Part shown: piece after piece, positions 13,089 through 54,912 of the stretch
Position numbering within the stretch: position 1 is the stretch's first letter
Layout: each line of letters begins with the position of its first letter
Origin: Myxococcales bacterium
GTDB lineage: Bacteria; Myxococcota; Myxococcia; Myxococcales; Myxococcaceae
Direction of reading: 5' to 3'
Length of the DNA stretch: 64,000 nucleotides
Assembly (NCBI GenBank): GCA_030681895.1
Contig: JAUXRI010000333.1
Coordinates: forward strand, 62,001 to 126,000
Translations under genes and position numbers: made by a program
The notes under the pieces: model-generated
What the model was told of the DNA's origin: nothing
The model's input: only the letters and a program-made list of their open reading frames with translations
Databases searched by the model: none

Positions 13089-14402
13089 ATGACGCAGCGC
13101 CAGGAACTCGTCTCGAGGTTGCGCGCCGCGCGGCAGCGCACTGATGCGCTCTTCGAGTGGCTCAAGCCCGAAGCGCTGCTCGAGCGTCCCATCGCCGAAC
13201 GGCATCGGCTCATCTTCTATCTCGGCCACCTCGAGGCCTTCGACTGGAACCTGATCAGTCGCGAGGCGGTCGGCCACGCGTCGCGGAACCAGCACTTCGA
13301 GCGGCTCTTCGCGTTCGGCATCGACCCCATCGACGGTCAACTGCCGCGCGACACGCCTGACGACTGGCCCGCCGTCGCGGACATCAAGGCGTGGACGAAG
13401 CTGGTGCGCGCCGACCTCGACGCCGACCTCGAGCGCGGGCCGATGAATGGCTGGCTCTCCGAGGGCTGGGCGGCACACCTCGCCATCGAACACCGGCTGA
13501 TGCACGCCGAGACGCTCGCGTACCTGTTTCATCGGCTTCCTCTCGAGAAGCTGCACCCGGGCCCAGCGCCGACGCGAATCACCGGGCCTGCCGTCGAACC
13601 CACGCTCGTCTCCATTCCGGCCGGGGTCGCGACGCTCGGGCTCCAGCGCTCCCGCGCGCCGCACCTGGGCTGGGACAACGAATACGAAGAGCACCGCGTC
13701 GACGTGCGCGCGTTCCGCATCGACCGGTTTCCTGTCAGCAGTGGTGACTTCGCGCGCTTCGTCGAGGCGGGCGGGTACCAGACGCGCGCGCTGTGGAGCG
13801 ACGAGTCATGGAAGTGGCTCGCGACCGAGCAGCGCACACACCCGCGCGCGTGGACGAAGCGCCCCGACGGCTGGTGGACCCGCACGATGTTCGCCGAGGT
13901 GCCGTTGCCGTCGTCGTGGCCGGCCTCGGTGAGTCACGCCGAAGCGAGCGCGTACGCCGCGTGGAAGGGCGCGCGCCTGATGACGGAGCCCGAGTGGCAT
14001 CGCGCCGCGCTCGGCATGCACGAAGGTGGTGAGCGCACGTCTCCATGGGGCGGTCACCCCGCGGTGCCTGGCGTGCACGGTACGTTCGGGTTCTCGACGG
14101 TCGACCCGCTCCCCATCGGCTCGACGCCAGAGAGCCGCAGCGCCTTCGGCGTGGAAGAGCTCGTCGGCAACGGCTGGGAGTGGACCTCGACGCTCTTCGC
14201 GCCGTTCAAGGGCTTCGAGCCGCTGCCGTTCTACCAGGGCTACTCGGCGAACTTCTTCGACGGCCGGCACTTCGTGATGAAGGGCGCGAGCGCGTTCACC
14301 GACACGACGTTCCTGCGTCGCTCGTTCCGCAACTGGTTTCAGCCGCACTACCCTCACGTCTTCTCGAAGTTCCGCTGCGTGTACGAAGGCAAGGGCCCAT
14401 GA
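13089..14402 (+). CDS. egtB: Ergothioneine biosynthesis protein EgtB (hercynylcysteine sulfoxide synthase type)
   Basis: 437 residues. The N-terminal DinB-like part has the iron ligands expected of EgtB: a His in YLGHLEAFDW and the pair in IEHRLMHAETLAYL. The C-terminal FGE-sulfatase/C-type-lectin part runs from FRIDRFPVSSGDFARFVEAGGY through RLMTEPEWHRAAL and VGNGWEWTSTLFAPF to the last RCVYEGKG. EgtB uses iron and oxygen to join the thiol sulfur to hercynine. It is followed by egtD with a 4-bp overlap, which settles the pathway. No egtA, egtC or egtE is present nearby, so the donor may be cysteine itself rather than gamma-glutamylcysteine; that is inference. Confidence 0.9.
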   Translation: MTQRQELVSRLRAARQRTDALFEWLKPEALLERPIAERHRLIFYLGHLEAFDWNLISREAVGHASRNQHFERLFAFGIDPIDGQLPRDTPDDWPAVADIKAWTKLVRADLDADLERGPMNGWLSEGWAAHLAIEHRLMHAETLAYLFHRLPLEKLHPGPAPTRITGPAVEPTLVSIPAGVATLGLQRSRAPHLGWDNEYEEHRVDVRAFRIDRFPVSSGDFARFVEAGGYQTRALWSDESWKWLATEQRTHPRAWTKRPDGWWTRTMFAEVPLPSSWPASVSHAEASAYAAWKGARLMTEPEWHRAALGMHEGGERTSPWGGHPAVPGVHGTFGFSTVDPLPIGSTPESRSAFGVEELVGNGWEWTSTLFAPFKGFEPLPFYQGYSANFFDGRHFVMKGASAFTDTTFLRRSFRNWFQPHYPHVFSKFRCVYEGKGP

Positions 14403-15424
14403 AGACCTCGAAAGTGGTGCCGCTGCGTCCAGGACTTCAGGAGCGACGACGCCAGCCGCGTGCGGTCGAAGCGTCGCCAGTGCTGGCGGCGGCCGTGCGC
14501 GCAGGGTTGAGCGCGTCTCCCAAGACGCTGCCGGCGGCGCTGCTCTACGACGACCTCGGCTCGGCGTTGTTCGAGGCCATCACGTTGTTGCCCGAGTACG
14601 AGGTGACGCGGGCCGACCTGCGGCTGCTCGAGAGCAAAGCCGGCGACGTCGGAGCGCTGCTCCCCACCGCCGATGTCGTCGAACTCGGGCCAGGCGCGGG
14701 ACGAAAGGCGAAGCTGTTCCTGGAGCGGTTTGCCGCGGGCCGTGCGGTGCGCTTCTCGGCCATCGACGTGTCCGAGGCGGCGCTGCGCGACTGCGCGCGC
14801 ACGGTCGAGCAGGTGCCCCACGTCTCGGTGTCGACGGTGAAGGGCCGCTACCTCGACGGCCTCAATGACGTCGTCGCCGCGCGCCGGCCGGGGGTTCCGC
14901 TGCTGGTGTTGTTCCTCGGCAGCAACCTGTCGAACTTCGACCGCGCCGAGGCGCAGGGGGTTCTGTTCGCGATTCGACGAATGCTCCGCGAAGGTGACGC
15001 GCTGCTGCTGGCCACCGACCTCGACAAGCCGGCGGCGCAGCTCATCCCCGCGTACGACGATGCGTGTGGCGTGACGGCCGCCTTCAACAAGAACCTGCTG
15101 GTGCGGCTCAACCGCGAGCTGTCGGCGAACTTCGACGTCTCCGCCTTCCACCACGAGGCGCGCTGGAGCACGGTGCATCGCCGCATCGAGATGCACCTCG
15201 TCGCCACGCGCCCGCTCGAGGTGACGCTCGGCGCGACGGGAGACGTCTTTCACTTCGCGCACGGCGAGTCGTTGTGGACCGAGTCGAGCCACCGCTTCCG
15301 CACCGACGAGCTCGACGGCTGGGGCCACGACGCCGGCTTCGTCACCCAGGCGCAGTGGGTCGACCCGCACTGGGCGTTCGCGCACACCCTCTTTCGCGTT
15401 GGAACTTCGGGAGTCACTTCATGA
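14399..15424 (+). CDS. egtD: L-histidine N-alpha-methyltransferase EgtD
   Basis: 341 residues from ATG 14399, overlapping egtB by 4 bp. After a short basic leader it has the EgtD landmarks LLYDDLGSALFEAITLLPEYEVTRAD, the SAM loop VELGPGAGRKAK, LLVLFLGSNLSNFDRAEA, DLDKPAAQLIPAYDDACGVTAAFNKNLL and the C-terminal ESSHRF...AGF. These are conserved in enzymes that trimethylate histidine to hercynine, the substrate of EgtB. The order B-D is the reverse of some operons but common. The third gene, DUF427, again begins inside its stop codon. Confidence 0.92.
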   Translation: MKTSKVVPLRPGLQERRRQPRAVEASPVLAAAVRAGLSASPKTLPAALLYDDLGSALFEAITLLPEYEVTRADLRLLESKAGDVGALLPTADVVELGPGAGRKAKLFLERFAAGRAVRFSAIDVSEAALRDCARTVEQVPHVSVSTVKGRYLDGLNDVVAARRPGVPLLVLFLGSNLSNFDRAEAQGVLFAIRRMLREGDALLLATDLDKPAAQLIPAYDDACGVTAAFNKNLLVRLNRELSANFDVSAFHHEARWSTVHRRIEMHLVATRPLEVTLGATGDVFHFAHGESLWTESSHRFRTDELDGWGHDAGFVTQAQWVDPHWAFAHTLFRVGTSGVTS

Positions 15425-15702
15425 AGAAGGCAGAGTGGAATGGCGTGGTGCTCGCCGAGTCGGACGACATCGTGACGGAAGAGGGCAACGCCTACTTCCC
15501 GGCGAGCTCGCTGAAGCAGGAGCACTTCAAGCCGAGCGACACGCACACCGTCTGCGGCTGGAAGGGCACCGCGAGCTACTACGACGTGGTGGTGGGCGCC
15601 GCGGTGAACAAAGACGCTGCCTGGTACTACCCGCAGGCGAAGGCCGAGGCGAAGCACGTCGAGGGTCGCGTCGCGTTCTGGAAGGGCGTCATCGTTCGCT
15701 GA
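15421..15702 (+). CDS. DUF427 domain protein, third gene of the ergothioneine operon
   Basis: 93 residues from ATG 15421, overlapping the egtD stop by 4 bp. It shows the compact DUF427 pattern: AEWNGVVLAESDD, then VEGNAYFP-type strand, TVCGWKGTASYYDVVV and a closing HVEGRVAFWKGVIVR. The Cys in CGWKG is typical of the family. Its biochemical role is not established. Translational coupling to egtB-egtD suggests a helper role in ergothioneine chemistry or a shared stress regulon. Its 3' end is inside the left copy of a 92-bp direct repeat, and a decayed second copy of its last ~28 codons lies 2.2 kb downstream. Confidence 0.85.
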   Translation: MKKAEWNGVVLAESDDIVTEEGNAYFPASSLKQEHFKPSDTHTVCGWKGTASYYDVVVGAAVNKDAAWYYPQAKAEAKHVEGRVAFWKGVIVR

Positions 15703-15737
15703 AGCGCGGCGAGAGTCGGGTGCGTGACTCCGTGGCG
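15646..15737 (+). repeat. Left copy of 92-bp direct repeat
   Basis: Covers the last 19 codons of the DUF427 gene, its stop, 21 bp of spacer and the first 14 bases of a second reading frame (GTGACTCCGTGGCG) that here ends quickly. The right copy is at 17852-17943, an exact offset of 2206 bp with no gaps. I count nine mismatches by eye, nearly all in the coding part; the last 26 bases are identical. Confidence 0.85.
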
Positions 15738-15793
15738 GGTGGCGTGAAACTCATCACTGGCTCCGCAAGGGAGCGAATTCAGTCCCTACGCGG

Positions 15794-16975
15794 TCACTCC
15801 ATCGTGCGAGGCACCCGCACGACGCCATCAGAAGACGAAGCATACAACCACCTCGTGGAGAGCCACGTCGGGTCTGAATTTCGCCGAAGCGGAATGGCGT
15901 CAACACGAACCTCGCCAGTGCGGGTCAAGCGCGCCACGCCGATCAAGGGCGAGTCGCCGTGCAACCCCAGCCTGAAGAAGGGCACTCGTCCGAAACCGTT
16001 TGGCCCAAGACCGAGGTCGTCGTTTGGGGCCTTGCCCTCAAGCCGGCCGCCATCGGGCAGCTCGATCGAGAGCACCCTGCGGCTGCGGTCCACACGCCAG
16101 AAGCCCTCGTCGCTTGCCAGCACCTCGGCAGCCTCTCCGGGTTGGCTCGACAGCGAGAACGGAGCCTCGAGACTGATGACCTCGGTCAGCTGCCCTCGCG
16201 CGGCGAAGAGCGTCGTGTCATCCCGAAATCGGAGTGCCTGGATTCTGGCCTGAAGCGGGAGCTGCCGAACCCCAGCGTCTTCGTCGAATACGAAGAGTGC
16301 ATCAGGTGCCGCGACGACGAGCCGAGAGCCACGAGTGGCGAACACGGGCTCAATTGCATCGGAGAAGACATCCCGATGAACGAATGATGCGTCTCGAGAC
16401 TCATCATCGATTCTGCGGGCCTCGACGCTGCGCCCCGAGAATTCCCAGGCCAGGGAATCAGTGAGCGCGGTCGCACCGTTTCCTCGACAATAGACACCAC
16501 CATCAGGCAACTCGAGAGGGAAACACCTTGGAAGGCTTTCCCAGCTCGTTGGCCAATAGCCGTGGTACGCGAATCCTCTCCTCTCCATGACACCCAGGTT
16601 CGTCGTGATTCGAATGACCACAACTCCGGGAGGTGGCGCGAATGCAACGGTTGTGGATGCGACGCGGCTGGGAAGTCCATCAAAGTCTGCATTGTGAAAG
16701 AGTGAGATGGGGTTTCCAGCTTCGTCGAACACTTCAGCTCTTGCCGACTCGATTTCGTGCAGTCCGTCGTCGCACTGGGCAGAGCCGCTCGCGGAAACGC
16801 TGAGCACGGTGACGACGCCTGCGATGCTGTTGAATGGGCGACCAACGGTCGAGAACTCAGTCACGCAGACTGGATCTGAGGGCGGTTCTGGGGGCACCTG
16901 GGCCTGGGGTTGACACGCACAGGCGACGATGACCAGAAGTCTAAGCCAGTCTCTCAAGTGCTCTTTCTTGTCCAC
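15794..16975 (-). CDS. Lipoprotein of unknown function in the inserted segment
   Basis: 393 residues from a GTG at 16975; a TTG a few codons later is possible. The lead LRLLVIVACACQ is a signal peptide with a lipobox-like Cys at 19 or 21. After it come short beta repeats: SRLVVAAPDALFVFDEDAGVRQL, TLFAARGQLTEVISLEAPF and EGFWRVDRSRRVLSIELPDGG suggest a propeller or similar display fold. No catalytic motif is visible. Base use is clearly less GC-rich than the neighbours. Only 17 bp separate its start from the divergent Cys-rich lipoprotein, and that gap contains CCTTACGA twice in tandem. Confidence 0.65.
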   Translation of the reverse strand: MDKKEHLRDWLRLLVIVACACQPQAQVPPEPPSDPVCVTEFSTVGRPFNSIAGVVTVLSVSASGSAQCDDGLHEIESARAEVFDEAGNPISLFHNADFDGLPSRVASTTVAFAPPPGVVVIRITTNLGVMERRGFAYHGYWPTSWESLPRCFPLELPDGGVYCRGNGATALTDSLAWEFSGRSVEARRIDDESRDASFVHRDVFSDAIEPVFATRGSRLVVAAPDALFVFDEDAGVRQLPLQARIQALRFRDDTTLFAARGQLTEVISLEAPFSLSSQPGEAAEVLASDEGFWRVDRSRRVLSIELPDGGRLEGKAPNDDLGLGPNGFGRVPFFRLGLHGDSPLIGVARLTRTGEVRVDAIPLRRNSDPTWLSTRWLYASSSDGVVRVPRTME

Positions 16976-16992
16976 CTTACGACCTTACGACC

Positions 16993-17799
16993 ATGAATTG
17001 TATCAAGAGCTCAATTGTCATGCTCGTTCTCGTCATGGTCGAGGCCTGCTCAGGGGGGGATTGGTGCTCGAACTCTGCGAGCGCTCAGTGTGATCGTGAC
17101 GTTCGCTGCGGAATGGTCGACCCCCGTCTGCGGTCCACGTGTATTGCCCGACGGATCGCGGACTGCAAGCCGAGCGAGCTCCAGGCTGCTCTTGGAGCCG
17201 GCCACACCAGTTTCGTCGCGAGTGAAGGGGACGCCTGTCTTCAGGCTCTCGCCAATCAGAGTTGTGATGACCTGCGACCTGAGTTCTCCCATCCGCGAAG
17301 AACCCTGCCTGCAGCTTGTCTCCGTGCCTTTGCCGGAAAGCTCAAGACGAGCGCCAGCTGTGCCGTTCATGAAGCATGCGAGTCGACCATCTGCGAGGTT
17401 CCACGCCCTGGTCTCGGGGGCGACCGTCGATGCCAGGTTGCCGACGCGAGGGCCTCGTGCGAGACAGACTTGCACTGCCCGTTCGAGACGGTTTGTCACC
17501 GGAATTCTTGTAGTGGAAATGAGGGACAGACTTGTAATTGCGCAGCGAAGGCGACCACGGACTGCGGCTGCAAGTTTCCGCTGACATGCTTTCGAACGGC
17601 TGTGTACGTCAATGGTTCATCGGGCTACTGCACCGCCAGTAGCGAGCGGTTGCTGCTCGGCTATCGGCCCTGGGTCGCCGGTTCAGAGTGGATCTCCGAG
17701 GGTGGGAGCTGCCAACTCCCCGGCTCCTCTCAAGACGTCGTTCGCCCCTGCATGACCGACCTGACCTGCGAGAGCGGGACCTGCCGACGATCGCCCTGA
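16993..17799 (+). CDS. Cysteine-rich secreted lipoprotein
   Basis: 268 residues. The signal MNCIKSSIVMLVLVMVEACSGG ends in a lipobox-like Cys at 19. The mature part has about 27 Cys in pairs spaced like small disulfide modules (CSNSASAQCDRDVRCG, CETDLHCPFETVCHRNSC, CNCAAKATTDCGCKFPLTC, CMTDLTCESGTC), a pattern frequent in myxobacterial surface proteins of unknown function. It probably folds only after export. It forms a divergent pair with the lipoprotein at 15794-16975, and both share the lower GC of the segment, so they may have been acquired together. Confidence 0.7.
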   Translation: MNCIKSSIVMLVLVMVEACSGGDWCSNSASAQCDRDVRCGMVDPRLRSTCIARRIADCKPSELQAALGAGHTSFVASEGDACLQALANQSCDDLRPEFSHPRRTLPAACLRAFAGKLKTSASCAVHEACESTICEVPRPGLGGDRRCQVADARASCETDLHCPFETVCHRNSCSGNEGQTCNCAAKATTDCGCKFPLTCFRTAVYVNGSSGYCTASSERLLLGYRPWVAGSEWISEGGSCQLPGSSQDVVRPCMTDLTCESGTCRRSP

Positions 17800-17821
17800 A
17801 CGGCCTTCTCCGTCACTGGGC

Positions 17822-17908
17822 GACTCGGCCGGCGGCGCCTTCGAGTTCGACGAGGCGAAACACGTCGAAGGGCGTGTCGCGGTCCGGAAGCGCGTCGTCG
17901 TTCGCTGA
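17822..17908 (+). pseudogene. Remnant of a DUF427 gene 3' end
   Basis: Reads DSAGGAFEFDEAKHVEGRVA then VRKRVVVR and stop, in one frame. The intact DUF427 gene ends AKHVEGRVAFWKGVIVR. There is no start codon or upstream body, so this is a fragment. It overlaps the right copy of the 92-bp repeat. The conserved Trp is lost, consistent with decay. Confidence 0.75.
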
Positions 17909-17943
17909 AGCGCGGCTAGAGTCGGGTGCGTGACTCCGTGGCG
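17852..17943 (+). repeat. Right copy of 92-bp direct repeat
   Basis: Second copy of 15646-15737. Here the final bases GTGACTCCGTGGCG are the true start of the membrane-protein gene at 17930, while the coding part of DUF427 is decayed. Confidence 0.85.
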
Positions 17944-18682
17944 ATGGGCATGGCGCGCGCTCGGAACGGCGCTGGTTCTCATCATCGCCGGCTGGCTCAT
18001 CGGTGGGCTGCTGGGCCTGTGGAGCCCGCTCGTCTCGATGGGCGTGTGCGCGACGGCGATGTTGTTGGTGGGCGCGCCGTGGGCGGTGGGCCGAATCGGA
18101 GGCGCTGGGCTGGCGGCCGGGTTGTTCGGCCTCATCGCAGCCATCGGCGCAGCCATCGAGAGCCATCACGCCTTCGTGGTGAGCCGCGCCGAGGTGGTGT
18201 CGCTCCCGAGCCTGGCCGCGTGGACGCCCGAGTCTGGCGTGGTGGCGATGCAGGTGCCCGCGCTGCACCACCGGTGGAAGCTGAAAGCCTCGCTCTCGAG
18301 GACGGTGAGCTCGGGCAAGGGCACGCGACAGGTGAACCAGACCGCCGTGCCGCTCGCCGAGGTTGATGGGCGCGTCGTCGGGTTCTTCTGCGGCACCGAA
18401 GGCAGCGCCGATGGCCCGTTCGCCCTGTCGCTCGACGCGTGGCTCGGGCGCAGTCCTGAGCTGTGCGAGGCCGTCATCGAGCGCTCGACGAAGCAGCTCG
18501 TCGAGGCTGGCGTTCCCATCGAGCCCGGCGCGAAAGACAGAGTCGTCAGCGTCTTCGCGTCAGAGGCCGCGCTCCGTGGAGCCCACCGGCTCGACCTCGC
18601 CTTCGCGATGCCGATGTGGATGTTCGGCGTCTACGCGGTGCTCGTCGTGCTGCTGCGGAAGGCGGGCGCGGAGCCCGATTGA
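17930..18682 (+). CDS. Membrane protein of unknown function
   Basis: 250 residues from GTG 17930. Three hydrophobic helices lie near the N-terminus (TALVLIIAGWLIGGLLGLW, SMGVCATAMLLVGAPWAV, LAAGLFGLIAAIGAAI) and one at the C-terminus (MWMFGVYAVLVVLLRKAG). The middle ~130 residues are soluble, with a strand GRVVGFFCGTEGSADGPFAL. No family is recognised. Its first 14 bases are also present in the left 92-bp repeat next to DUF427, so it was probably the fourth gene of the egt operon before the insertion. Confidence 0.65.
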   Translation: MTPWRWAWRALGTALVLIIAGWLIGGLLGLWSPLVSMGVCATAMLLVGAPWAVGRIGGAGLAAGLFGLIAAIGAAIESHHAFVVSRAEVVSLPSLAAWTPESGVVAMQVPALHHRWKLKASLSRTVSSGKGTRQVNQTAVPLAEVDGRVVGFFCGTEGSADGPFALSLDAWLGRSPELCEAVIERSTKQLVEAGVPIEPGAKDRVVSVFASEAALRGAHRLDLAFAMPMWMFGVYAVLVVLLRKAGAEPD

Positions 18683-33039: not shown

Positions 33040-33246
33040 TCACTTCTGTTTTCGCGCCACCTTCAAGCCCAGCCCCTGCTCCGCGAGCGCTTCGGTCAGC
33101 ACCCGAATCGCCTTGGGACCGACGCCGTGCATGCCGCGCAGCTCGTCCTTCGTCAGCGCAGCAGCGTCGCGCAGGCGCAGAACGCCGTGCGCCTCGAGGG
33201 CCCTCAGCGCGACCTTGCCCATCGACGGTGGAAGCTCGTCGCTCAT
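33040..33246 (-). CDS. Helix-hairpin-helix (RpoA C-terminal-like) small DNA-binding protein
   Basis: 68 residues from ATG 33246. MGKVALRALEAHGVLRLRDAAALTKDELRGMHGVGPKAIRVLTEAL is the pattern of the alpha-CTD/HhH fold (GMHGVGPKA is the hairpin), followed by a basic tail KVARKQK. Such proteins bind DNA non-specifically. Its start overlaps by 4 bp (ATGA) the stop of a 43-codon frame that is a copy of the DUF4403 C-terminus, and it lies downstream of the OmpA gene, so it is likely co-transcribed. Confidence 0.8.
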   Translation of the reverse strand: MSDELPPSMGKVALRALEAHGVLRLRDAAALTKDELRGMHGVGPKAIRVLTEALAEQGLGLKVARKQK

Positions 33247-33374
33247 CTCGCGGCGCCCCCGGGCACCGACGGACAGGGCAGGTGCACGCTCGCTTGCGCC
33301 GTCGTGGTCGCGGACACGCGCAGGTACGAGGCGTGCGGGTACACGCCCCTCACTTCGATTCTGGAGACATTCAT
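33243..33374 (-). pseudogene. 43-codon copy of the DUF4403 gene's 3' end
   Basis: MNVSRIEVRGVYPHASYLRV then SATTTAQASVHLPCPSVPGG. The DUF4403 protein (34730-36094) ends MNVAKIEVSGVYPHASYLRV then YVTTTAQASVYLPCPSAPG. The DNA of the two stretches is also alike over about 130 bp. The frame is open from ATG 33374, 5 bp after the OmpA stop, with AGAGGTGAG upstream, and it is coupled to the next gene, so it may still be translated. It lacks any signal or the rest of the domain. Confidence 0.7.
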
Positions 33375-33379
33375 CCGTC

Positions 33380-34603
33380 TCACCTCTCGCAGCGCACCTC
33401 GACACGCCGGTTGAGACTGCGCCCCACCTCGTCGGCGTTCGAGGCGAGCGGCGTCGCTTCGCCGCGACCCACCGCCGTCAACTGCTTCGCGTCGAGGCCG
33501 CGCTTCACCAACTCGGCCACCACCGCCTCGGCCCGCCGCCGCGACAGTTCGAGGTTGTACTGCTCCGCGCCTTCGCTGGAGGTGTGCCCTTCGATGATGG
33601 CCTTCGGAGAGCCGTCGTCCCTCAGCCCGGCCGCGAGCCGCTCCAGCAGTGGCTCCGAGTCGGGCAGGACCTTCGCGGTGTCGTACCCGAAACGAACGCC
33701 GTGCAGCACCGCGCCGCACGACACCTTCTTCGCCGGCGGCGCGGGGCACTTCTCCTTGGGGCCCAGCGTCGCCGATGACAGCTCAACCACTCTGAAGGGT
33801 GCGCCGTTGGTGCTGCGCACGCCGCGCAGCACCCCAGCGACGGTGCGCTGCAGCACCCACAGGCTCACGACCTTCGTGCGCGTCGCGACACCACGCGCGC
33901 GGAGCATGGGCCCTGACACCGTGCCGTGCAGCGTTCCTTCGCCGTCGAAGCACCCCGTCACCACCGGGCCGTCTTGCTGCAGGTCGAGCGAGTCATTCTT
34001 CAGACGATACCCTCCGTTGAAGCCCTCTGCGCGCGGCGCCTCGGCCTGTGTCCCTTCACCGACCAACTCGCTGAAGTGGAACGTCGACTTCGCCTCTCTG
34101 ACGTCGAGGCCACCCGAGAGCTCGACCCTGACCCATCGCACCGCAGGTTGTTCAGGCGTGAGCGTCAACGACGTCTCGAGACCCTTCTTGCCGTGGGCCG
34201 ACAACGTGGCGCGCCCCAACACCTCGAAGCCAGCGTCCGGGCCGACTGACGAGCCCGCCACCACCACCTCACGGAAGAACGTCTGAAAGGCGCTGGGCGT
34301 CTCGTGCACCTCAGGTACCGCCAGGCGCGTGAACGTCGTCGGCGCTGGCAGCTCGTAGAGGAACCACGCCCCAGCATCAGGGGCTGCCTGCGTCAGCACC
34401 GAAGCCTTCACGGTGTTGCCATCGATGAGGTCGAGCGCCTGCTCGAAGCCGATGGGCGTTGCCTGGCCCGTCACGCCGAAGGCCAGCGGCAACGCGCCCG
34501 AAGCGAACGTGAAGAGGTCGGGAGGCCCCACCTTCTCGCCGTCGGCCGCAGCCGCGAGGAAGGGAACCACCGCAAGCAGCCACACTGCCCGAGCGCTTCG
34601 CAT
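33380..34603 (-). CDS. OmpA-family outer-membrane protein
   Basis: 407 residues with a signal peptide (AVWLLAVVPFLAAAA). Residues ~30-290 are an N-terminal extracellular or periplasmic part (FGVTGQATPIGFEQALDLIDG..., a strand-rich region with a discoidin-like look: WFLYELPAPTTFTRLAVPEV, RWVRVELSGGLDVREA). The C-terminal OmpA domain (~300-405) has VRFGYDTAKVLPDSEPLLERLA, IIEGHTSSEGAEQYNLELSRRRAEAVVAELV and NRRVEVRCE, the peptidoglycan-binding residues. It likely anchors the outer membrane to the wall. It is the first of a run with the short DUF4403 copy and the HhH protein. Confidence 0.9.
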   Translation of the reverse strand: MRSARAVWLLAVVPFLAAAADGEKVGPPDLFTFASGALPLAFGVTGQATPIGFEQALDLIDGNTVKASVLTQAAPDAGAWFLYELPAPTTFTRLAVPEVHETPSAFQTFFREVVVAGSSVGPDAGFEVLGRATLSAHGKKGLETSLTLTPEQPAVRWVRVELSGGLDVREAKSTFHFSELVGEGTQAEAPRAEGFNGGYRLKNDSLDLQQDGPVVTGCFDGEGTLHGTVSGPMLRARGVATRTKVVSLWVLQRTVAGVLRGVRSTNGAPFRVVELSSATLGPKEKCPAPPAKKVSCGAVLHGVRFGYDTAKVLPDSEPLLERLAAGLRDDGSPKAIIEGHTSSEGAEQYNLELSRRRAEAVVAELVKRGLDAKQLTAVGRGEATPLASNADEVGRSLNRRVEVRCER

Positions 34604-34729: not shown

Positions 34730-36094
34730 TCAGCGGGCGCCAGTCTCGCGAGCGGCCACACCCGGCGCCGACGGACATGGCAGGTACACGCTCGCCTGCG
34801 CCGTCGTCGTCACGTACACGCGCAGGTACGACGCGTGCGGGTACACGCCGCTTACTTCGATTTTGGCGACGTTCATCTTCACGCAGCCGCCCTCGAAGCC
34901 GACGTCGTTGGAGAGCTTCGTGCGCACGGTGTGGAACCGCTCCGCGAGGTCGAGCTTGAGCGCCTGCCTCGCCTGGTCCCGAATGCCGTTCGCGTCGAGG
35001 CTCGCCTTCAGGCCCAGCAGGAAGCTGCTCGTCTGCACCGTGGGCTCGAGGTCGGGAATGCGCAGCTCGTTGTCCACCACGACAGGGTGGCCCGCGAAGT
35101 AGAGGTCTCCGTCGAGGGTCGCCGAGAGGCCCGCGGCCTTGATGGGCCCGGCGAGATGCAGCTTCACCACCAACTGGTCCTGCTGTGACGCGAACACCTC
35201 GGGGTCCGACAGGAAGAGCTCGGGGTACGACTTCGAGAAGAAGAGCTTCCCGTCGGTGAAGGCGAGCGACATGGCTTTGGCGAGCTCTTCGTAGCGGGCG
35301 GCGATGGGCACCACGACGCTGAAGGGACCCGACGGCAGCGTCGCGACGTTCGCCAGGCGCGGCGCTTCGGTCTGCGCCACCTCGGTGCTGCACGGGAGCG
35401 ACACCGACGGCGCCACCACGAACGCGAGGTCCTTCTCGAAACCACCGGCGAGCACGGTCGGGCCCGCCTCGATGGACGTCACCTTCAACGTCGCGCAGCC
35501 GTCGGCAGTGCCGAGCGGCAGCTTCATCGGCGCGGAGATCTTCTCGTACGCCGTCTTCACCTGCGGCGAGAGGTCCCACGAGAACTGCTCGATGGCGCCG
35601 TCGATGGCCTCCTGGGCGCGCTCCAGCACACTGGCCATGCCCTGGGCGGTGCGCAACCGAAGGTCCTTCGACTCCACCTTCGTCTTCGCGCCCTGCAGCC
35701 GCGCCTTCCAGTCGCTGGTGATGACGGGCTCTCCGCTGACGGCGACCGAGACGGGCACCACCATCTTGCCCAGCATCGGCAGCTCGACGTCGAGGGATAG
35801 CTCGGTCTTGAGCTCGACGCGCTGATCAGCGAAGCGCAGGGTGAAGGGACTCCGGCTCCACTTCACCGCGCGTGGGCCTCGAAAGTCGAAGCTCGTCTCG
35901 CCGCTCGACGGGACGCGCGTGTCGAGGGCTTGCTTGAGGCCGTCGGCCGTCGCGGTGATGTGCACGACGAGCTTGGCCGGCAGCGGCTCGGCCGGCGGCG
36001 CGCTCGTCGAAGCGGAAGGGCGTGACGGGTACAGCGGCATGGTGGCGCAGCCGGCAGCGAAGAGCGTCAACGTGGCGAGGAGCGTGCGCGTCAT
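34730..36094 (-). CDS. DUF4403 family lipoprotein
   Basis: 454 residues from ATG 36094 (MTRTLLATLTLFAAGC); the lipobox is FAAGC. The body matches DUF4403, large two-fold tubular proteins of the envelope related to lipid-binding TULIP domains: FDFRGPRAVKWSRSPFTLRF, RLRTAQGMASVLERAQEAIDGAI, two similar halves (~60-240 and ~260-440) and the closing KIEVSGVYPHASYLRVYVTTTAQASVYL. Two Cys (DGCATL, LPCST) may pair. The last 44 codons are copied at 33243-33374. Possibly a lipid carrier between membranes; inferred from fold only. Confidence 0.8.
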   Translation of the reverse strand: MTRTLLATLTLFAAGCATMPLYPSRPSASTSAPPAEPLPAKLVVHITATADGLKQALDTRVPSSGETSFDFRGPRAVKWSRSPFTLRFADQRVELKTELSLDVELPMLGKMVVPVSVAVSGEPVITSDWKARLQGAKTKVESKDLRLRTAQGMASVLERAQEAIDGAIEQFSWDLSPQVKTAYEKISAPMKLPLGTADGCATLKVTSIEAGPTVLAGGFEKDLAFVVAPSVSLPCSTEVAQTEAPRLANVATLPSGPFSVVVPIAARYEELAKAMSLAFTDGKLFFSKSYPELFLSDPEVFASQQDQLVVKLHLAGPIKAAGLSATLDGDLYFAGHPVVVDNELRIPDLEPTVQTSSFLLGLKASLDANGIRDQARQALKLDLAERFHTVRTKLSNDVGFEGGCVKMNVAKIEVSGVYPHASYLRVYVTTTAQASVYLPCPSAPGVAARETGAR

Positions 36095-36151
36095 GCGGCG
36101 GAACAAACCTCAAGCCAGCCCACAACGCGACAGTGCTCGGGGTACCGTCCG

Positions 36152-41097: not shown

Positions 41098-42261
41098 ATG
41101 TCCACTCCGAACCTGCTGATGATTCCGGGGCCGATCGGCCTGTCGTCTGACGTGCTCCGCGCGTTGTCGGAGCCTCAGCGTGGACACCTCGACCCCGTCT
41201 TCATGCAGTCGTTTTCGCGCGCGTTGAAGCGGCTGCGTGAGGTGTTCGTCGCGCCGGGCGCGCAGCCGTTCATCGTCTCGGGCTCCGGCACGCTCGCGAT
41301 GGAGATGTCGGTCGCGAACCTGATCCAGCCCGGTGACAAGGCGCTGGTGGTGAACACCGGCTACTTCTCGGACCGCATCGCCACGATGCTCGAGCTGCAC
41401 GGCGCGCAGGTGACGCACGTGAAGGCCGAGCCCGGTGACGTCGCGTCGCTCGGCGACGTGGAGCGTGCGCTCTCGAGCACCTCGTTCAAGCTGATGACCG
41501 TCACGCACGTCGACACCTCGACGGCGGTGCTCGCGCCGGTGAAGGAGCTCGCCGCCCTCGCGAAGAAGTACGGCGCGCTGGTGGTGGTGGACGGCGTCTG
41601 CAGCGTCGGAGGTGAAGCGCTCGAGATGGACGCCTGGGGCGTCGACGTGGCGTTCACCGCGAGTCAGAAAGCGCTCGGCGCGCCTCCGGGGCTGGCCGTG
41701 CTGCTCGCGAGCCCGCGCGCGATGGAAGCGTGGAAGGCACGCACGAAGCCCGTCGCCGCGATGTACCTCGACTTCGCGCAGTGGCTGCCGATTCAGCAGG
41801 CCTACGAGGCAGGCACGCCGTCGTACTTCGCCACACCTGCGGTGAACCTCATCATGGCGCTCGAGGTGAGCCTGGGAGAGCTGGTCGCCGAGACGATGCC
41901 GGTACGCATCGCGCGTCATCAGACCCTCGCCCGTGCCGCGCGCGCGGCGTGGAGCGCGTTGGGTCTCGTGTCACTCACCCATCGCCCCGAGGTGACGGCG
42001 CACACGCTGTCGGCGCTCAAGTACCCAGCCGGTGTCGATGCATCGCTGGTGAAGCACGTCGCCGCGCAGGGCGTGAACATCGCTGGCGGGCTTCACCCGG
42101 CGCTCAAGGCGACGTACTTCCGCGTCGGGCACATGGGCGCCGCAACTGGCGGCACTGTGCTCGAGACGGTCGGGGCCCTCGAGCGCGGCCTCTCGGCCTC
42201 CGGCTACCGCTTCGACGCAGGCGTCGGTGTTGCCGCGGCGCAGCGCGCGCTCACGGCCTGA
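41098..42261 (+). CDS. Class V aminotransferase (alanine-glyoxylate/serine-pyruvate type)
   Basis: 387 residues. It opens NLLMIPGPIGLSSDVLRALSEPQRGHLDPVF, the family's PGP motif. The PLP-binding Asp is in VVVDGVCSVGG and the Schiff-base Lys in TASQKALGAPPGLAV. GTPSYFATPAVNLIMALEVSL and the C-terminal HPALKATYFRVGHMG match alanine-glyoxylate and serine-pyruvate aminotransferases, which transfer amino groups between Ala, Ser and glyoxylate. Its last ~40 codons are found again twice just downstream as a non-coding remnant. Confidence 0.9.
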   Translation: MSTPNLLMIPGPIGLSSDVLRALSEPQRGHLDPVFMQSFSRALKRLREVFVAPGAQPFIVSGSGTLAMEMSVANLIQPGDKALVVNTGYFSDRIATMLELHGAQVTHVKAEPGDVASLGDVERALSSTSFKLMTVTHVDTSTAVLAPVKELAALAKKYGALVVVDGVCSVGGEALEMDAWGVDVAFTASQKALGAPPGLAVLLASPRAMEAWKARTKPVAAMYLDFAQWLPIQQAYEAGTPSYFATPAVNLIMALEVSLGELVAETMPVRIARHQTLARAARAAWSALGLVSLTHRPEVTAHTLSALKYPAGVDASLVKHVAAQGVNIAGGLHPALKATYFRVGHMGAATGGTVLETVGALERGLSASGYRFDAGVGVAAAQRALTA

Positions 42262-42303
42262 TCAGCGCGCTCGCCGCGCCAGCCTCGCGCGCGACCGCTT
42301 GGG

Positions 42304-42603
42304 CCCTTCGGCGCGGCGACGGGCGGCACAGTGATCGAGACCGGTGGTGCGCTGGAGCGGGGTCATGCGGCCCATCGCTTCGACGCAGCTGTCGACGTCG
42401 CCTCGCCTCGCCTGCACATGCTCGCGCGCAACCGTGTTGGGCCGATGGGCGCGCGCTCCAGCACCTTGAGGTGCTTCGAGATGGCCTGGAGGCCGGTGCT
42501 CGAGACCGGTGGTGCGCTCGAGCGGGGCCTTGCGGCTGCGGGCCATCGCTTCGACGCAGGTGTCGGCGTCGCCGCGGCCCAACGCGCGCTCTCTTCGCGC
42601 TGA
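42304..42603 (+). pseudogene. Two tandem degenerate copies of the aminotransferase C-terminus
   Basis: First copy, ~42304-42405: in frame it reads PFGAATGGTVIETGGALERG then HAAHRFDAAVDVAS. Second copy, ~42490-42603: VLETGGALERGLAAAGHRFD then AGVGVAAAQRALSSR and stop. The functional gene has MGAATGGTVLETVGALERGL then SASGYRFDAGVGVAAAQRAL. Both copies are in one open frame (GTG 42331 to TGA 42603), separated by a segment that reads as an ArsR-like helix on the other strand. No ribosome site is seen. Confidence 0.8.
42425..42496 (-). pseudogene. Fragment resembling an ArsR-family recognition helix
   Basis: The minus strand reads TGLQAISKHLKVLERAPIGP. ArsR repressors have QPAVSKHLKVLERAGL at the DNA-reading helix. 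Only about 20 codons fit and both sides are copies of the aminotransferase end, so this is a scrap caught between duplications. It could be chance similarity. Confidence 0.45.
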
Positions 42604-53026: not shown

Positions 53027-53086
53027 CCCGAGAGCGCACTCGACTCGTTCCCACGTTCGATGGTCGAGCAGCCGCCGGGCACCCGT

Positions 53087-53157
53087 GAGTCAGCGGCGGT
53101 GCGGAAAGCGCCCCAGTCGTGACACTCGTTTCGCGCCGCGACGGTTCCTTGCGCGAC
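53087..53157 (+). repeat. Hairpin repeat, copy 1
   Basis: Starts GAGTCAGC, has the core GGTGC-GGAAA-GCGCC (a small stem with one G-U pair) and CGTGACACTCGTTTC, and runs on to GGTTCCTTGCGCGAC. The outer GAGTCA and TGACACTC can also pair with a bulge. Confidence 0.65.
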
Positions 53158-53201
53158 CTCAGGCGTCGTCACCTCATCGCTGCGACCGTGCTGCCTGCCG
53201 C

Positions 53202-53254
53202 GAGTCAGCGCCGGTGCGGAAAGCGCCCCAATCGTGACACTCGTTTCGCGCCGC
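53202..53254 (+). repeat. Hairpin repeat, copy 2
   Basis: GAGTCAGCGCCGGTGCGGAA and the rest of the core through CGTGACACTCGTTTCGCGCC are almost identical to copy 1. Similarity stops after CCGC. It lies 54 bp upstream of the PLP-enzyme start at 53308. Confidence 0.65.
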
Positions 53255-53307
53255 ATCGGAACGGGCAACCGATTCACCGCAGACTCTGCGATGAGCCGCG
53301 CCAGCCC

Positions 53308-54447
53308 ATGCCGAAACGAACGTTGAAGCCCGCGACCCTCGCAGCGCAAGCGCTCGGCTGGGTCGAGCCCACCACTCGCGCCGTCGTCGCTCCGATTCAC
53401 GTCTCCACCACCTACGAGCGCGACCCCTCGTACGGCCCGGGCCGAAGCTACGCGCGCGCCGACAACCCGACCTTCGACCAGGCCGAGGCGTTGCTCACCG
53501 CGCTCGAGGGTGGCCGGGCCTCGTTGCTCTTCGCCTCAGGCATGGCGGCGGCGACGAGCGTCTTCCTCGCGCTGAAGCCGGGCGACCACGTGCTCGTGCC
53601 CGAGGTGATGTACTGGGGCCTTCGTACGTGGCTCCAGCAGTTCGCCGCGCCGCGTGGGTTGCTCGTCGAGTTCGTTCCCACCGGCGACGTCGGCGCGCTC
53701 GCGAAGGCGGTGAAGCCGGGCACGACGAAGCTCCTGTGGGTCGAGACGCCGGCCAACCCCACCTGGACGGTGACGGACATCGCCGCCGCCGCGACCATCG
53801 CCCACGCCGCCGGAGCCCGCCTCGCCGTCGACAACACCGTCGCGACGCCGCTGCTGACCCGGCCGCTCCAGCTCGGCGCTGACCTCGTCATGCACTCGGC
53901 GACGAAGTACCTGAATGGCCACTCCGACGTCGTCGCTGGAGCGCTCGTCACCGCCGCGACCGATGACTTCTGGCAGACGTTGATCAGCATTCGTCACGAC
54001 GGCGGCGCGATTCTCGGGCCGTTCGAGGCGTGGCTGCTCCAGCGCGGCATGCGAACGCTGCACCCCCGCGTGATGACCGCGTGCGCGGGCGCGATGCGAA
54101 TCGCTCGGCACTTCGAAGGCCACGCGCGCGTCGTCGAGGTGCTGTACCCGGGTCTGCCTCGCTTCGAAGGACACCGCGTCGCTGCGCAGCAGATGACGGG
54201 TGGCTTCGGGGGCATGCTCTCGCTTCGTGTCGCAGGTGGAGAAGCTGCTGCCCTCGCCGTTGCCGCGCGGGTCGAGGTCTTCAAGCGCGCCACCTCGCTC
54301 GGTGGCGTCGAGAGCCTGATGGAGCACCGCGCCTCGGTCGAAGGTCCCACCAGTCCCATCCCGAAGGACCTGCTGCGCCTCTCGGTCGGCATCGAAGACG
54401 TCGACGACCTCGTGGCCGACCTCGAGCAGGCGCTGACCCCGGGCTGA
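53308..54447 (+). CDS. Cystathionine gamma-synthase/lyase-type PLP enzyme
   Basis: 379 residues from ATG 53308. It has the Cys/Met metabolism PLP pattern: VVAPIHVSTTYERD, YARADNPTFDQAEALLTALEGG, LLFASGMAAATSVFLALKPGDHVL, LWVETPANPTWTVTDI, AVDNTVATPLLTRPLQLGADLVMHSATKYLNGHSD (Schiff-base Lys in SATKYL) and SLGGVESLMEHRAS. Such enzymes join or split cystathionine, or act as methionine lyases; the exact reaction cannot be read from sequence. It stands alone, flanked by copies of the hairpin repeat. Confidence 0.9.
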   Translation: MPKRTLKPATLAAQALGWVEPTTRAVVAPIHVSTTYERDPSYGPGRSYARADNPTFDQAEALLTALEGGRASLLFASGMAAATSVFLALKPGDHVLVPEVMYWGLRTWLQQFAAPRGLLVEFVPTGDVGALAKAVKPGTTKLLWVETPANPTWTVTDIAAAATIAHAAGARLAVDNTVATPLLTRPLQLGADLVMHSATKYLNGHSDVVAGALVTAATDDFWQTLISIRHDGGAILGPFEAWLLQRGMRTLHPRVMTACAGAMRIARHFEGHARVVEVLYPGLPRFEGHRVAAQQMTGGFGGMLSLRVAGGEAAALAVAARVEVFKRATSLGGVESLMEHRASVEGPTSPIPKDLLRLSVGIEDVDDLVADLEQALTPG

Positions 54448-54680
54448 TCCGTGGGGAGGGCATGCACCTCGTCCGGTCGGCCTCCGGGCGCACGCAAGGG
54501 AGCACAAGCCCAGCTGCGCTTCACGATGAGCGTCAGCGGGCTGGCCCAGAACGCGTTCGCGAGAAATGCACGTTCCTGAGCAGCGGCCCGGCGACCGACG
54601 TGGCCAGCGCCCTCTGCATCTCGCCCTCGCTCAGTCAGGAGTTTTCCTGCTCCCGCGTTGCTTGAAGACCGGCCCGCCCC
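54448..54680. other. 233 bp without a gene after the PLP enzyme
   Basis: No frame here looks coding on either strand and there is no signal peptide or ribosome site. It ends at the third copy of the hairpin repeat. No strong terminator hairpin was found right after the TGA at 54447. Confidence 0.4.
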
Positions 54681-54824
54681 GAGTCAGCACCAGTGCGGAA
54701 AGCGCCCCGGCATTCCCACCATCGCCTTCGGAGCCGCGCAGCTCGGCCTCGGCATCGCGAGCTTCTTCACCGCGCCCGCGCGACCGTGACACTCGTTTCA
54801 CTCCGCGAGGGTTCGTTGCGCGAC
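54681..54824 (+). repeat. Hairpin repeat, copy 3, interrupted by 76 bp
   Basis: First part GAGTCAGCACCAGTGCGGAA..GCGCCCC (54681-54708), second part CGTGACACTCGTTTCACTCC..GTTGCGCGAC (54785-54824). The 76 bp between them are absent from copies 1 and 2. The inserted DNA can be read as IPTIAFGAAQLGLGIASFFT, protein-like but without a start. Confidence 0.6.
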
Positions 54825-54912
54825 GTCCACCTGTGACTGCGTCACTCGCCACGGGCGTCACCTTCGCGTGCCACTGCCGAAGCAGGGGTGTTCGCGGGTC
54901 GCGTTCATCGCT

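Follow-up and report, generated by a model that had tools for sequence, protein, structure and literature searches.

A putative insertion with long target duplication beside the ergothioneine genes of a Myxococcales bacterium, with similar scars in its genus

Described systems with long target duplications

Insertion with long target duplication (Nobusato et al. 2000, Gene 259:99) is, according to the excerpts of PMC1643837 and PMC3031569 that cite it, frequently linked to the restriction-modification genes of Helicobacter pylori, and the literature using the phrase is, judged from a listing of papers, mostly devoted to Helicobacter and to restriction-modification. No report of it in myxobacteria stood among the 10 papers listed, of 16 matching, in a limited literature search, which is not proof of absence. 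A locus whose product matches this known kind is described here from a Myxococcales bacterium (assembly GCA_030681895.1, contig JAUXRI010000333.1, positions 62,001 to 126,000), where a segment with two genes lies between the copies of a 93-bp direct repeat, next to genes of ergothioneine biosynthesis. The 64,000-nt stretch is called the window and all positions refer to it unless another stretch (L with a number) or contig (C with a number) is named; G000 denotes the genome itself, and G001, G005, G006 and G012 denote genomes of relatives. The focal locus is case 1 of four loci of the same anatomy. As in the insertions described under that phrase, a gene segment is accompanied by a long and variable direct duplication of the target, recognized by comparison of related genomes (here for case 4). 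Unlike in the H. pylori examples of the same excerpts, where restriction-modification genes are frequent, the cargo consists of genes for secreted- or lipoprotein-like products, while protein-gene ends make up the repeats; no restriction-modification Pfam family is found in the main predicted gene or genes of the four inserts.

Similar products have been obtained in the laboratory. In Escherichia coli, when linearized DNA had one homologous end, 56 of 60 Lac- clones were positive in a PCR diagnostic of a lacZ duplication, and the 14 sequenced duplications, of 109-950 bp, were explained by recircularization and a single crossing-over (PMC3240628, in excerpt). This Campbell-type integration leaves, as here, an insert flanked by a direct duplication of the homologous segment, but it involved, in the same excerpt, a laboratory plasmid and about 1 kb of homology, whereas the present repeats measure 53-126 bp, no vector is involved, the event is natural and we infer its mechanism. 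In Arabidopsis, according to the excerpts of PMC2869330, transposed single genes likewise lie between direct repeats of the target site that are mostly genic, and re-insertion of a circle has been proposed; that is a plant genome in which parental sites are identified for some genes, whereas no donor site is known here.

By Pfam, no transposase, integrase or other mobility family occurs in the main predicted genes of the four inserts, and in none of the four are terminal inverted repeats clearly better than in shuffled sequence, case 2 coming nearest with 7% of shuffles as good. The loci thereby differ from transposons and insertion sequence (IS) elements, and the target duplication is far longer than is usual for IS. 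Integrative elements at gene 3' ends duplicate the 3' end of their target, which stays intact. The present loci share this feature, yet they lack an integrase family, have a different target gene each time and carry inserts of only 1.4-2.4 kb. The same absence of an integrase family and of a fixed target (four different genes) separates them from integrase-type genomic islands.

The focal repeat pair and the inserted segment

The two copies of the focal repeat (Table 1) are direct, gapless and colinear, with an offset of 2206 and nine mismatches over 93 bp, and their similarity is beyond chance (E 1.7e-29 in a self-BLAST of the window). A sequence-only reading of the window had recognized this pair, with the same offset and mismatches and a length of 92 bp, and its account of two complementary halves agrees with the sequence: the left copy holds an intact DUF427 end and only a broken beginning of the gene that follows, and the right copy has a decayed end and the intact start of this membrane-protein gene at 17930 (the 17930 gene). 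In the decayed end, three residues that relatives conserve are replaced (F>V, W>R and G>R). Since both copies hold the same junction between the DUF427 end and the 17930-gene start, this junction is, as far as the repeats tell, older than the insert, and the DUF427 and 17930 genes would formerly have been adjacent. At the focal locus it is the repeats alone that point to this adjacency.

The segment between the copies is poorer in GC than its surroundings, as had been noticed, although not down to the 55% estimated by hand: 15738-17851 has 61.4% GC, with 57.4% in its lowest 500-base window, against an average of 68.0% (sd 1.5) for windows of 2114 bases, of which 3 out of 619 are as low, all three overlapping the segment. 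Third-position GC is 67% in each inserted gene vs 88-93% in four neighbours. Low GC is not a general feature of such inserts, the other three having 66-72%.

Among relatives, egtB and egtD sequences lie upstream of DUF427 in four of the six with a close DUF427, the gene having been searched in 40 genomes. The comparison proposed by the sequence-only reading, a relative in which the 17930 gene directly follows DUF427, gave no such empty site: in none of the six does the 17930 gene lie within 1.5 kb of DUF427, and in G001 both genes are present on separate contigs with different surroundings. That reading would have counted such non-adjacency against itself. We do not take it as a refutation because the sequence 3' of DUF427 varies from genome to genome among the relatives read.

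Three further loci of the same anatomy

The proposal of a duplication-based insertion is strengthened by three more loci, one of which has an empty site in a relative. Case 2 lies in the same window, case 3 on C220 of G000 and case 4 on C76 of the same-genus G006. In cases 1 to 4 the repeats measure 93, 126, 53 and 96 bp, each pair being direct and flanking an insert. In cases 2 to 4, one repeat edge stands, by eye, within about 3 nt of the stop codon of the target gene, as expected if homology ended where the gene content of donor and recipient differs.

In case 2, the target is a DUF4403 gene (Table 1), also present in two other genomes of the genus, neither of which has the adjoining HHH_5-like gene. 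Case 3 (stretch L060, 6868-9115) is a 53-bp repeat, 94% identical, of a protein-kinase gene end including its stop; its 2.1-kb insert carries a NosD-domain gene with a signal-like start, and the far copy adjoins a gene of the metallo-beta-lactamase fold. For this case one flank, not that of the kinase, was searched in relatives, with a best match of 32%.

Case 4 (C76, 304356-306959; stretch L187, 10356-12959) is a 96-bp repeat, 94% identical, of a serine acetyltransferase gene end, around a 2.4-kb insert with a Cys-rich, signal-like gene whose Pfam matches are all below cut-off. On C333 of G001, the two flanking genes converge, their stops being separated by 13 nt and no insert; this junction aligns with the right-hand junction of G006, whereas in the left copy of G006 the stop is followed by insert sequence. 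In the acetyltransferase loci of four relatives, searched over about 1.3-1.5 kb on each side, nothing matches the insert gene. Both copies share codons absent from four relatives, so that their source was the own lineage or a close donor. Case 4 is best read as an insertion with target duplication, an exact loss in G001 being less likely; it is not proof for the focal locus. On C311 of G000 (stretch L195), the gap between the acetyltransferase gene and the cytochrome gene is filled by a different gene, of 226 aa, and no long repeat can be seen; G000 and G006 thus have different genes at this junction, where G001 has none.

Decay of the unused copies

The four cases together have 34 mismatches in coding sequence, distributed 9:6:19 among codon positions 1:2:3. 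This distribution agrees with a 1:1:2 model, in which one copy is neutral while the other changes silently (p 0.61). The agreement is poorer for 1:1:1 (p 0.017), and 1:1:8, the model of strong constraint on both copies, is rejected (p 0.001). In case 1, coding sequence accounts for eight of the nine mismatches, with one elsewhere (p 0.15). Changes were polarized in cases 1, 2 and 4 (51/58, 117/126 and 93 coding nt, with 5, 2 and 4 relatives respectively), leaving five mismatches unassigned. The broken copies carry 19 changes, 13 of them nonsynonymous, spread 7:5:7 over codon positions, and the intact copies five, four of them synonymous. The 7:5:7 spread is compatible with evenness (p 0.81), as expected if a useless copy decayed after the duplication, and its third-position share of 7/19 departs from an assumed 75% (p 0.0005), which disfavours a divergent donor allele as the source of the copies. 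The broken copies of the three polarized cases therefore look neutral in their codon pattern, and because of this the copies were probably close to identical when made.

Survey of gene-end repeats

The survey covered 1.04 Mb of G000, 0.75 Mb of G006 and 0.40 Mb of the same-family G012, the last being a weak control, smaller and more broken (20-kb pieces); part of this sequence had already been inspected when its filters were set. Length and identity were passed by 15 direct and 3 inverted pairs in G000, 21 and 0 in G006, and 8 and 0 in G012. Removal of pairs that were of low complexity, multi-copy, within the same open reading frame (ORF) or in the interior of two ORFs took away 10 direct and 1 inverted, 16, and 8 pairs respectively, leaving as gene-end pairs 5 direct and 2 inverted in G000, 5 and 0 in G006, and none in G012. 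Both inverted pairs come from one place, C321 56352-56966, and resemble one palindromic element.

Six direct pairs were dropped by eye: a weak one in L089, paralogues in L124, ExbD-like paralogues in L100, two in L099 (one resembling multi-copy start repeats, one unresolved), and the pair at C211 40438/41573, 78% identical, which joins the start regions of two genes. At the latter site (L046, 438-510 and 1573-1643), the similar start regions of the neighbouring genes include signal-like peptides; an inserted gene may here have acquired its start from the target.

A tag test of gene ends against mid-gene positions lost cases 3 and 4 in its first version, probably through an over-strict complexity filter. 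A looser version gave, in G000 and G006, matches for 6 of 1254 end tags, 5 of 1246 start tags and 8 of 2423 mid-gene tags, all direct and none inverted; in G012, direct matches came from 1 end tag, 2 start tags and 2 mid-gene tags, and inverted ones from 2 start tags.

Shorter repeats occur elsewhere in the window. At 53075-54827, repeats of 40-62 bp, 67-92% identical, stand upstream of and behind the ORF 53119-54447, at spacings of 115 and about 1.5-1.6 kb, and at 42157-42591 repeats of 40-96 bp recur with a spacing of about 165-174, and the ORF 41098-42261 contains the first of them in its end.

Possible routes of insertion

The reading that we favour, with slightly better than even confidence, is an insertion that left 93 bp of duplicated target, by way of an end-joined circle and a single crossover, and that recurs in the genus. 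A 2.1-kb segment with two probably secreted-protein genes would have entered between the DUF427 and 17930 genes. The incoming DNA would have carried a piece homologous to the junction and been closed into a circle by end joining, and a single RecA-type crossover would have integrated this circle, producing the insert and its flanking direct repeats. With 93 bp of the target duplicated, one resident gene would use the left copy and the other the right, both being complete, and the unused parts of each copy would then have decayed. The duplication, the completeness of the resident genes and the decay of the unused parts can be read from the sequence, and the empty site at the sister locus of case 4 supports them. 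The circle would also account for the repeat edge at the stop codon of the target in cases 2 to 4. It is what we infer, short of proof, to be the most likely route, its main rival being a staggered break with fill-in and joining.

According to this rival, a fragment was ligated by Ku-type end joining into a break with staggered ends of about 50-130 nt, whose fill-in duplicated the overhang, and the insert needed no homology to the target. We regard this as unlikely, while a good part of the evidence suits it: a Ku gene, which also speaks for the end-joined circle, is present in six of the seven genus genomes, G000 included, terminal inverted repeats beyond chance are lacking, the copies were near-identical at the start, and the arbitrary repeat edges of case 1 are accounted for. 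It does not predict that three of the four cases have an edge about 3 nt or less from a stop codon. Staggers of this length are, to our knowledge, unusual, and a literature search on the point listed a single review, on genome editing. An unknown mobile element, or a transposase acting in trans, could also insert genes and leave target duplications that are long and of variable length, a mechanism proposed for the Helicobacter restriction-modification genes; the anatomy of the product is the same as described in the excerpts of PMC3031569 and PMC1643837, and the pattern recurs in the genus. This is nevertheless improbable, the repeat length varying from 53 to 126 bp, the four inserts showing no terminal inverted repeats beyond chance and the scanned cargo genes sharing no Pfam family (the inserts were not aligned with one another).

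The polarity may also be reversed, the insert being ancestral and lost from relatives by recombination between the repeats. Direct repeats permit such a precise deletion, of which G001 at case 4 could be the product, but one copy is a gene fragment, so that a duplication event is needed anyway, and the failure to find the G006 insert gene around the acetyltransferase gene of four relatives also speaks against a loss, which we consider very improbable. Hardly credible is an artefact that placed two strain haplotypes in tandem. G000 is indeed a draft of 352 contigs with 5.6% contamination, probably a metagenome assembly; against this, there is a 6-14% difference between copies, only gene ends and junctions are repeated, four loci in two assemblies show the pattern, and the changes of the broken copies look neutral in the three polarized cases.

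Several observations weigh against the circle-mediated insertion itself. The edges of case 1 are not at gene boundaries, one lying 35 nt past the DUF427 stop and the other after the first 14 nt of the next gene; such edges are not predicted by the circle model, and the fill-in of a staggered break would serve equally there. No LigD-like protein was noticed by eye among ORFs within 1.5 kb of the Ku gene of G000 (stretch L130), no search for the LigD family having been made. An empty site for the focal locus was not found in searches with DUF427 and the 17930 gene (40 genomes each) or in two scans of GTDB contigs, in which the 17930 protein gave 52 pattern matches and inserted gene A 23, none a relative by tblastn. 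Nor was a donor with the inserted genes beside an intact DUF427 found in these contig scans or in a search with gene B across 96 family genomes. The contrast between broken and intact copies is not significant by itself (Fisher p 0.12), and the three mismatches of the unpolarized case 3 are all silent third-position changes, which decay alone does not predict. Finally, the four cases were hand-picked by eye from ten direct gene-end pairs, which makes their count soft, and gene ends are not clearly enriched in the tag test, where cases 1 and 2 are still missed as end matches.

Resident and inserted genes

The segment had been placed within the ergothioneine operon. It does adjoin egtB-egtD-DUF427, at the downstream edge of these genes and not inside the biosynthetic ones (Table 1).

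Table 1. Features of the focal locus and of case 2 in the window
Feature	Position	Strand	Description or basis
egtB-like gene	13089..14402	+	DinB_2 + FGE-sulfatase domains (Pfam)
egtD-like histidine methyltransferase gene	14399..15424	+	Methyltransf_33 (Pfam)
DUF427 gene, intact	15421..15702	+	NTP_transf_9/DUF427 (Pfam); last 58 nt within left repeat copy
Left copy of 93-bp repeat	15645..15737	+	intact DUF427 end (58 nt), 21-nt spacer, first 14 nt of next gene (broken)
Inserted segment	15738..17850	.	2113 bp, 61% GC; terminal inverted repeats not beyond chance
Inserted gene A, probable lipoprotein	15794..16975	-	393 aa; lipobox-like start by eye; two paralogues (37%, 31%) elsewhere in own genome
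Inserted gene B	16993..17799	+	268 aa, Cys-rich, signal-like start
Right copy of 93-bp repeat	17851..17943	+	decayed DUF427 end, same spacer, intact start of 17930 gene
17930 gene, membrane protein, putative former DUF427 neighbour	17930..18682	+	in 4/40 searched genomes, own included
Case 2 HHH_5-like gene, small, putative former DUF4403 neighbour	33040..33246	-	below Pfam cut-off; in 1/7 genus genomes (own)
Case 2 decayed copy of DUF4403 3' end	33250..33375	-	abuts HHH_5-like gene; copies 1.5 kb apart
Case 2 inserted OmpA-domain gene	33383..34603	-	OmpA (Pfam); segment GC 68.6%
Case 2 DUF4403 gene, 3' end intact	34733..36106	-	Pfam
Case 2 repeat copy inside intact DUF4403 gene	34752..34877	-	126 bp, 86.5% identical to partner

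The two inserted genes, A and B, are divergent ORFs, as the sequence-only reading had them, and their assignment as lipoproteins stands on lipobox-like starts seen by eye, clearer in gene A than in gene B. Both probably encode secreted proteins. Neither contains a recombinase recognizable by Pfam, which confirms the earlier impression. Gene A has no Pfam match and gene B only two at chance level (E 0.19 and 0.26, below cut-off). The predicted structure of gene A, of modest confidence (pLDDT 73, from 4 sequences), is beta-rich; many structure matches are beta-propellers, TM to query being <0.4 in the 50 listed, and no function is assigned. The paralogues of gene A lie on C69 and C131 of the own genome, and a further one in G005. 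Gene B has no second copy found in its own genome. Of 95 other genomes of the family, 6 have matches to it, at 29-36% identity and for the most part partial.

The C69 paralogue is flanked by a 29-bp direct repeat, 25/29 identical (score 43 vs a maximum of 37 in 200 shuffles; 639-667 / 2368-2396 of stretch L041), close to the stop of the right-hand gene, and the copies of C131 and G005 have no flanking repeat above chance. With a repeat at this paralogue only and gene B in single copy, the idea of the cargo as a repeated mobile unit was rejected.

Significance

It is conceivable, and we hold it only as a doubtful possibility, that these bacteria have a standing, recombinase-free way of acquiring genes, in which the joined ends of captured DNA would add one or two secreted-protein genes beside resident genes and duplicate 50-130 bp of the target, with some 10-30 readable scars per genome. 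The hand-sorted cases amount to three scars in the 1.04 Mb of G000 and one in the 0.75 Mb of G006, with Poisson intervals of about 6-83 and 0.3-66 per genome. Many bacterial gene gains leave no trace of how they occurred, and a repeat scar with separately decaying halves marks the site and the relative age of a gain made without a mobile element. A genome-wide count of such scars in strains of the genus would test how single orphan or secreted-protein genes enter large genomes.

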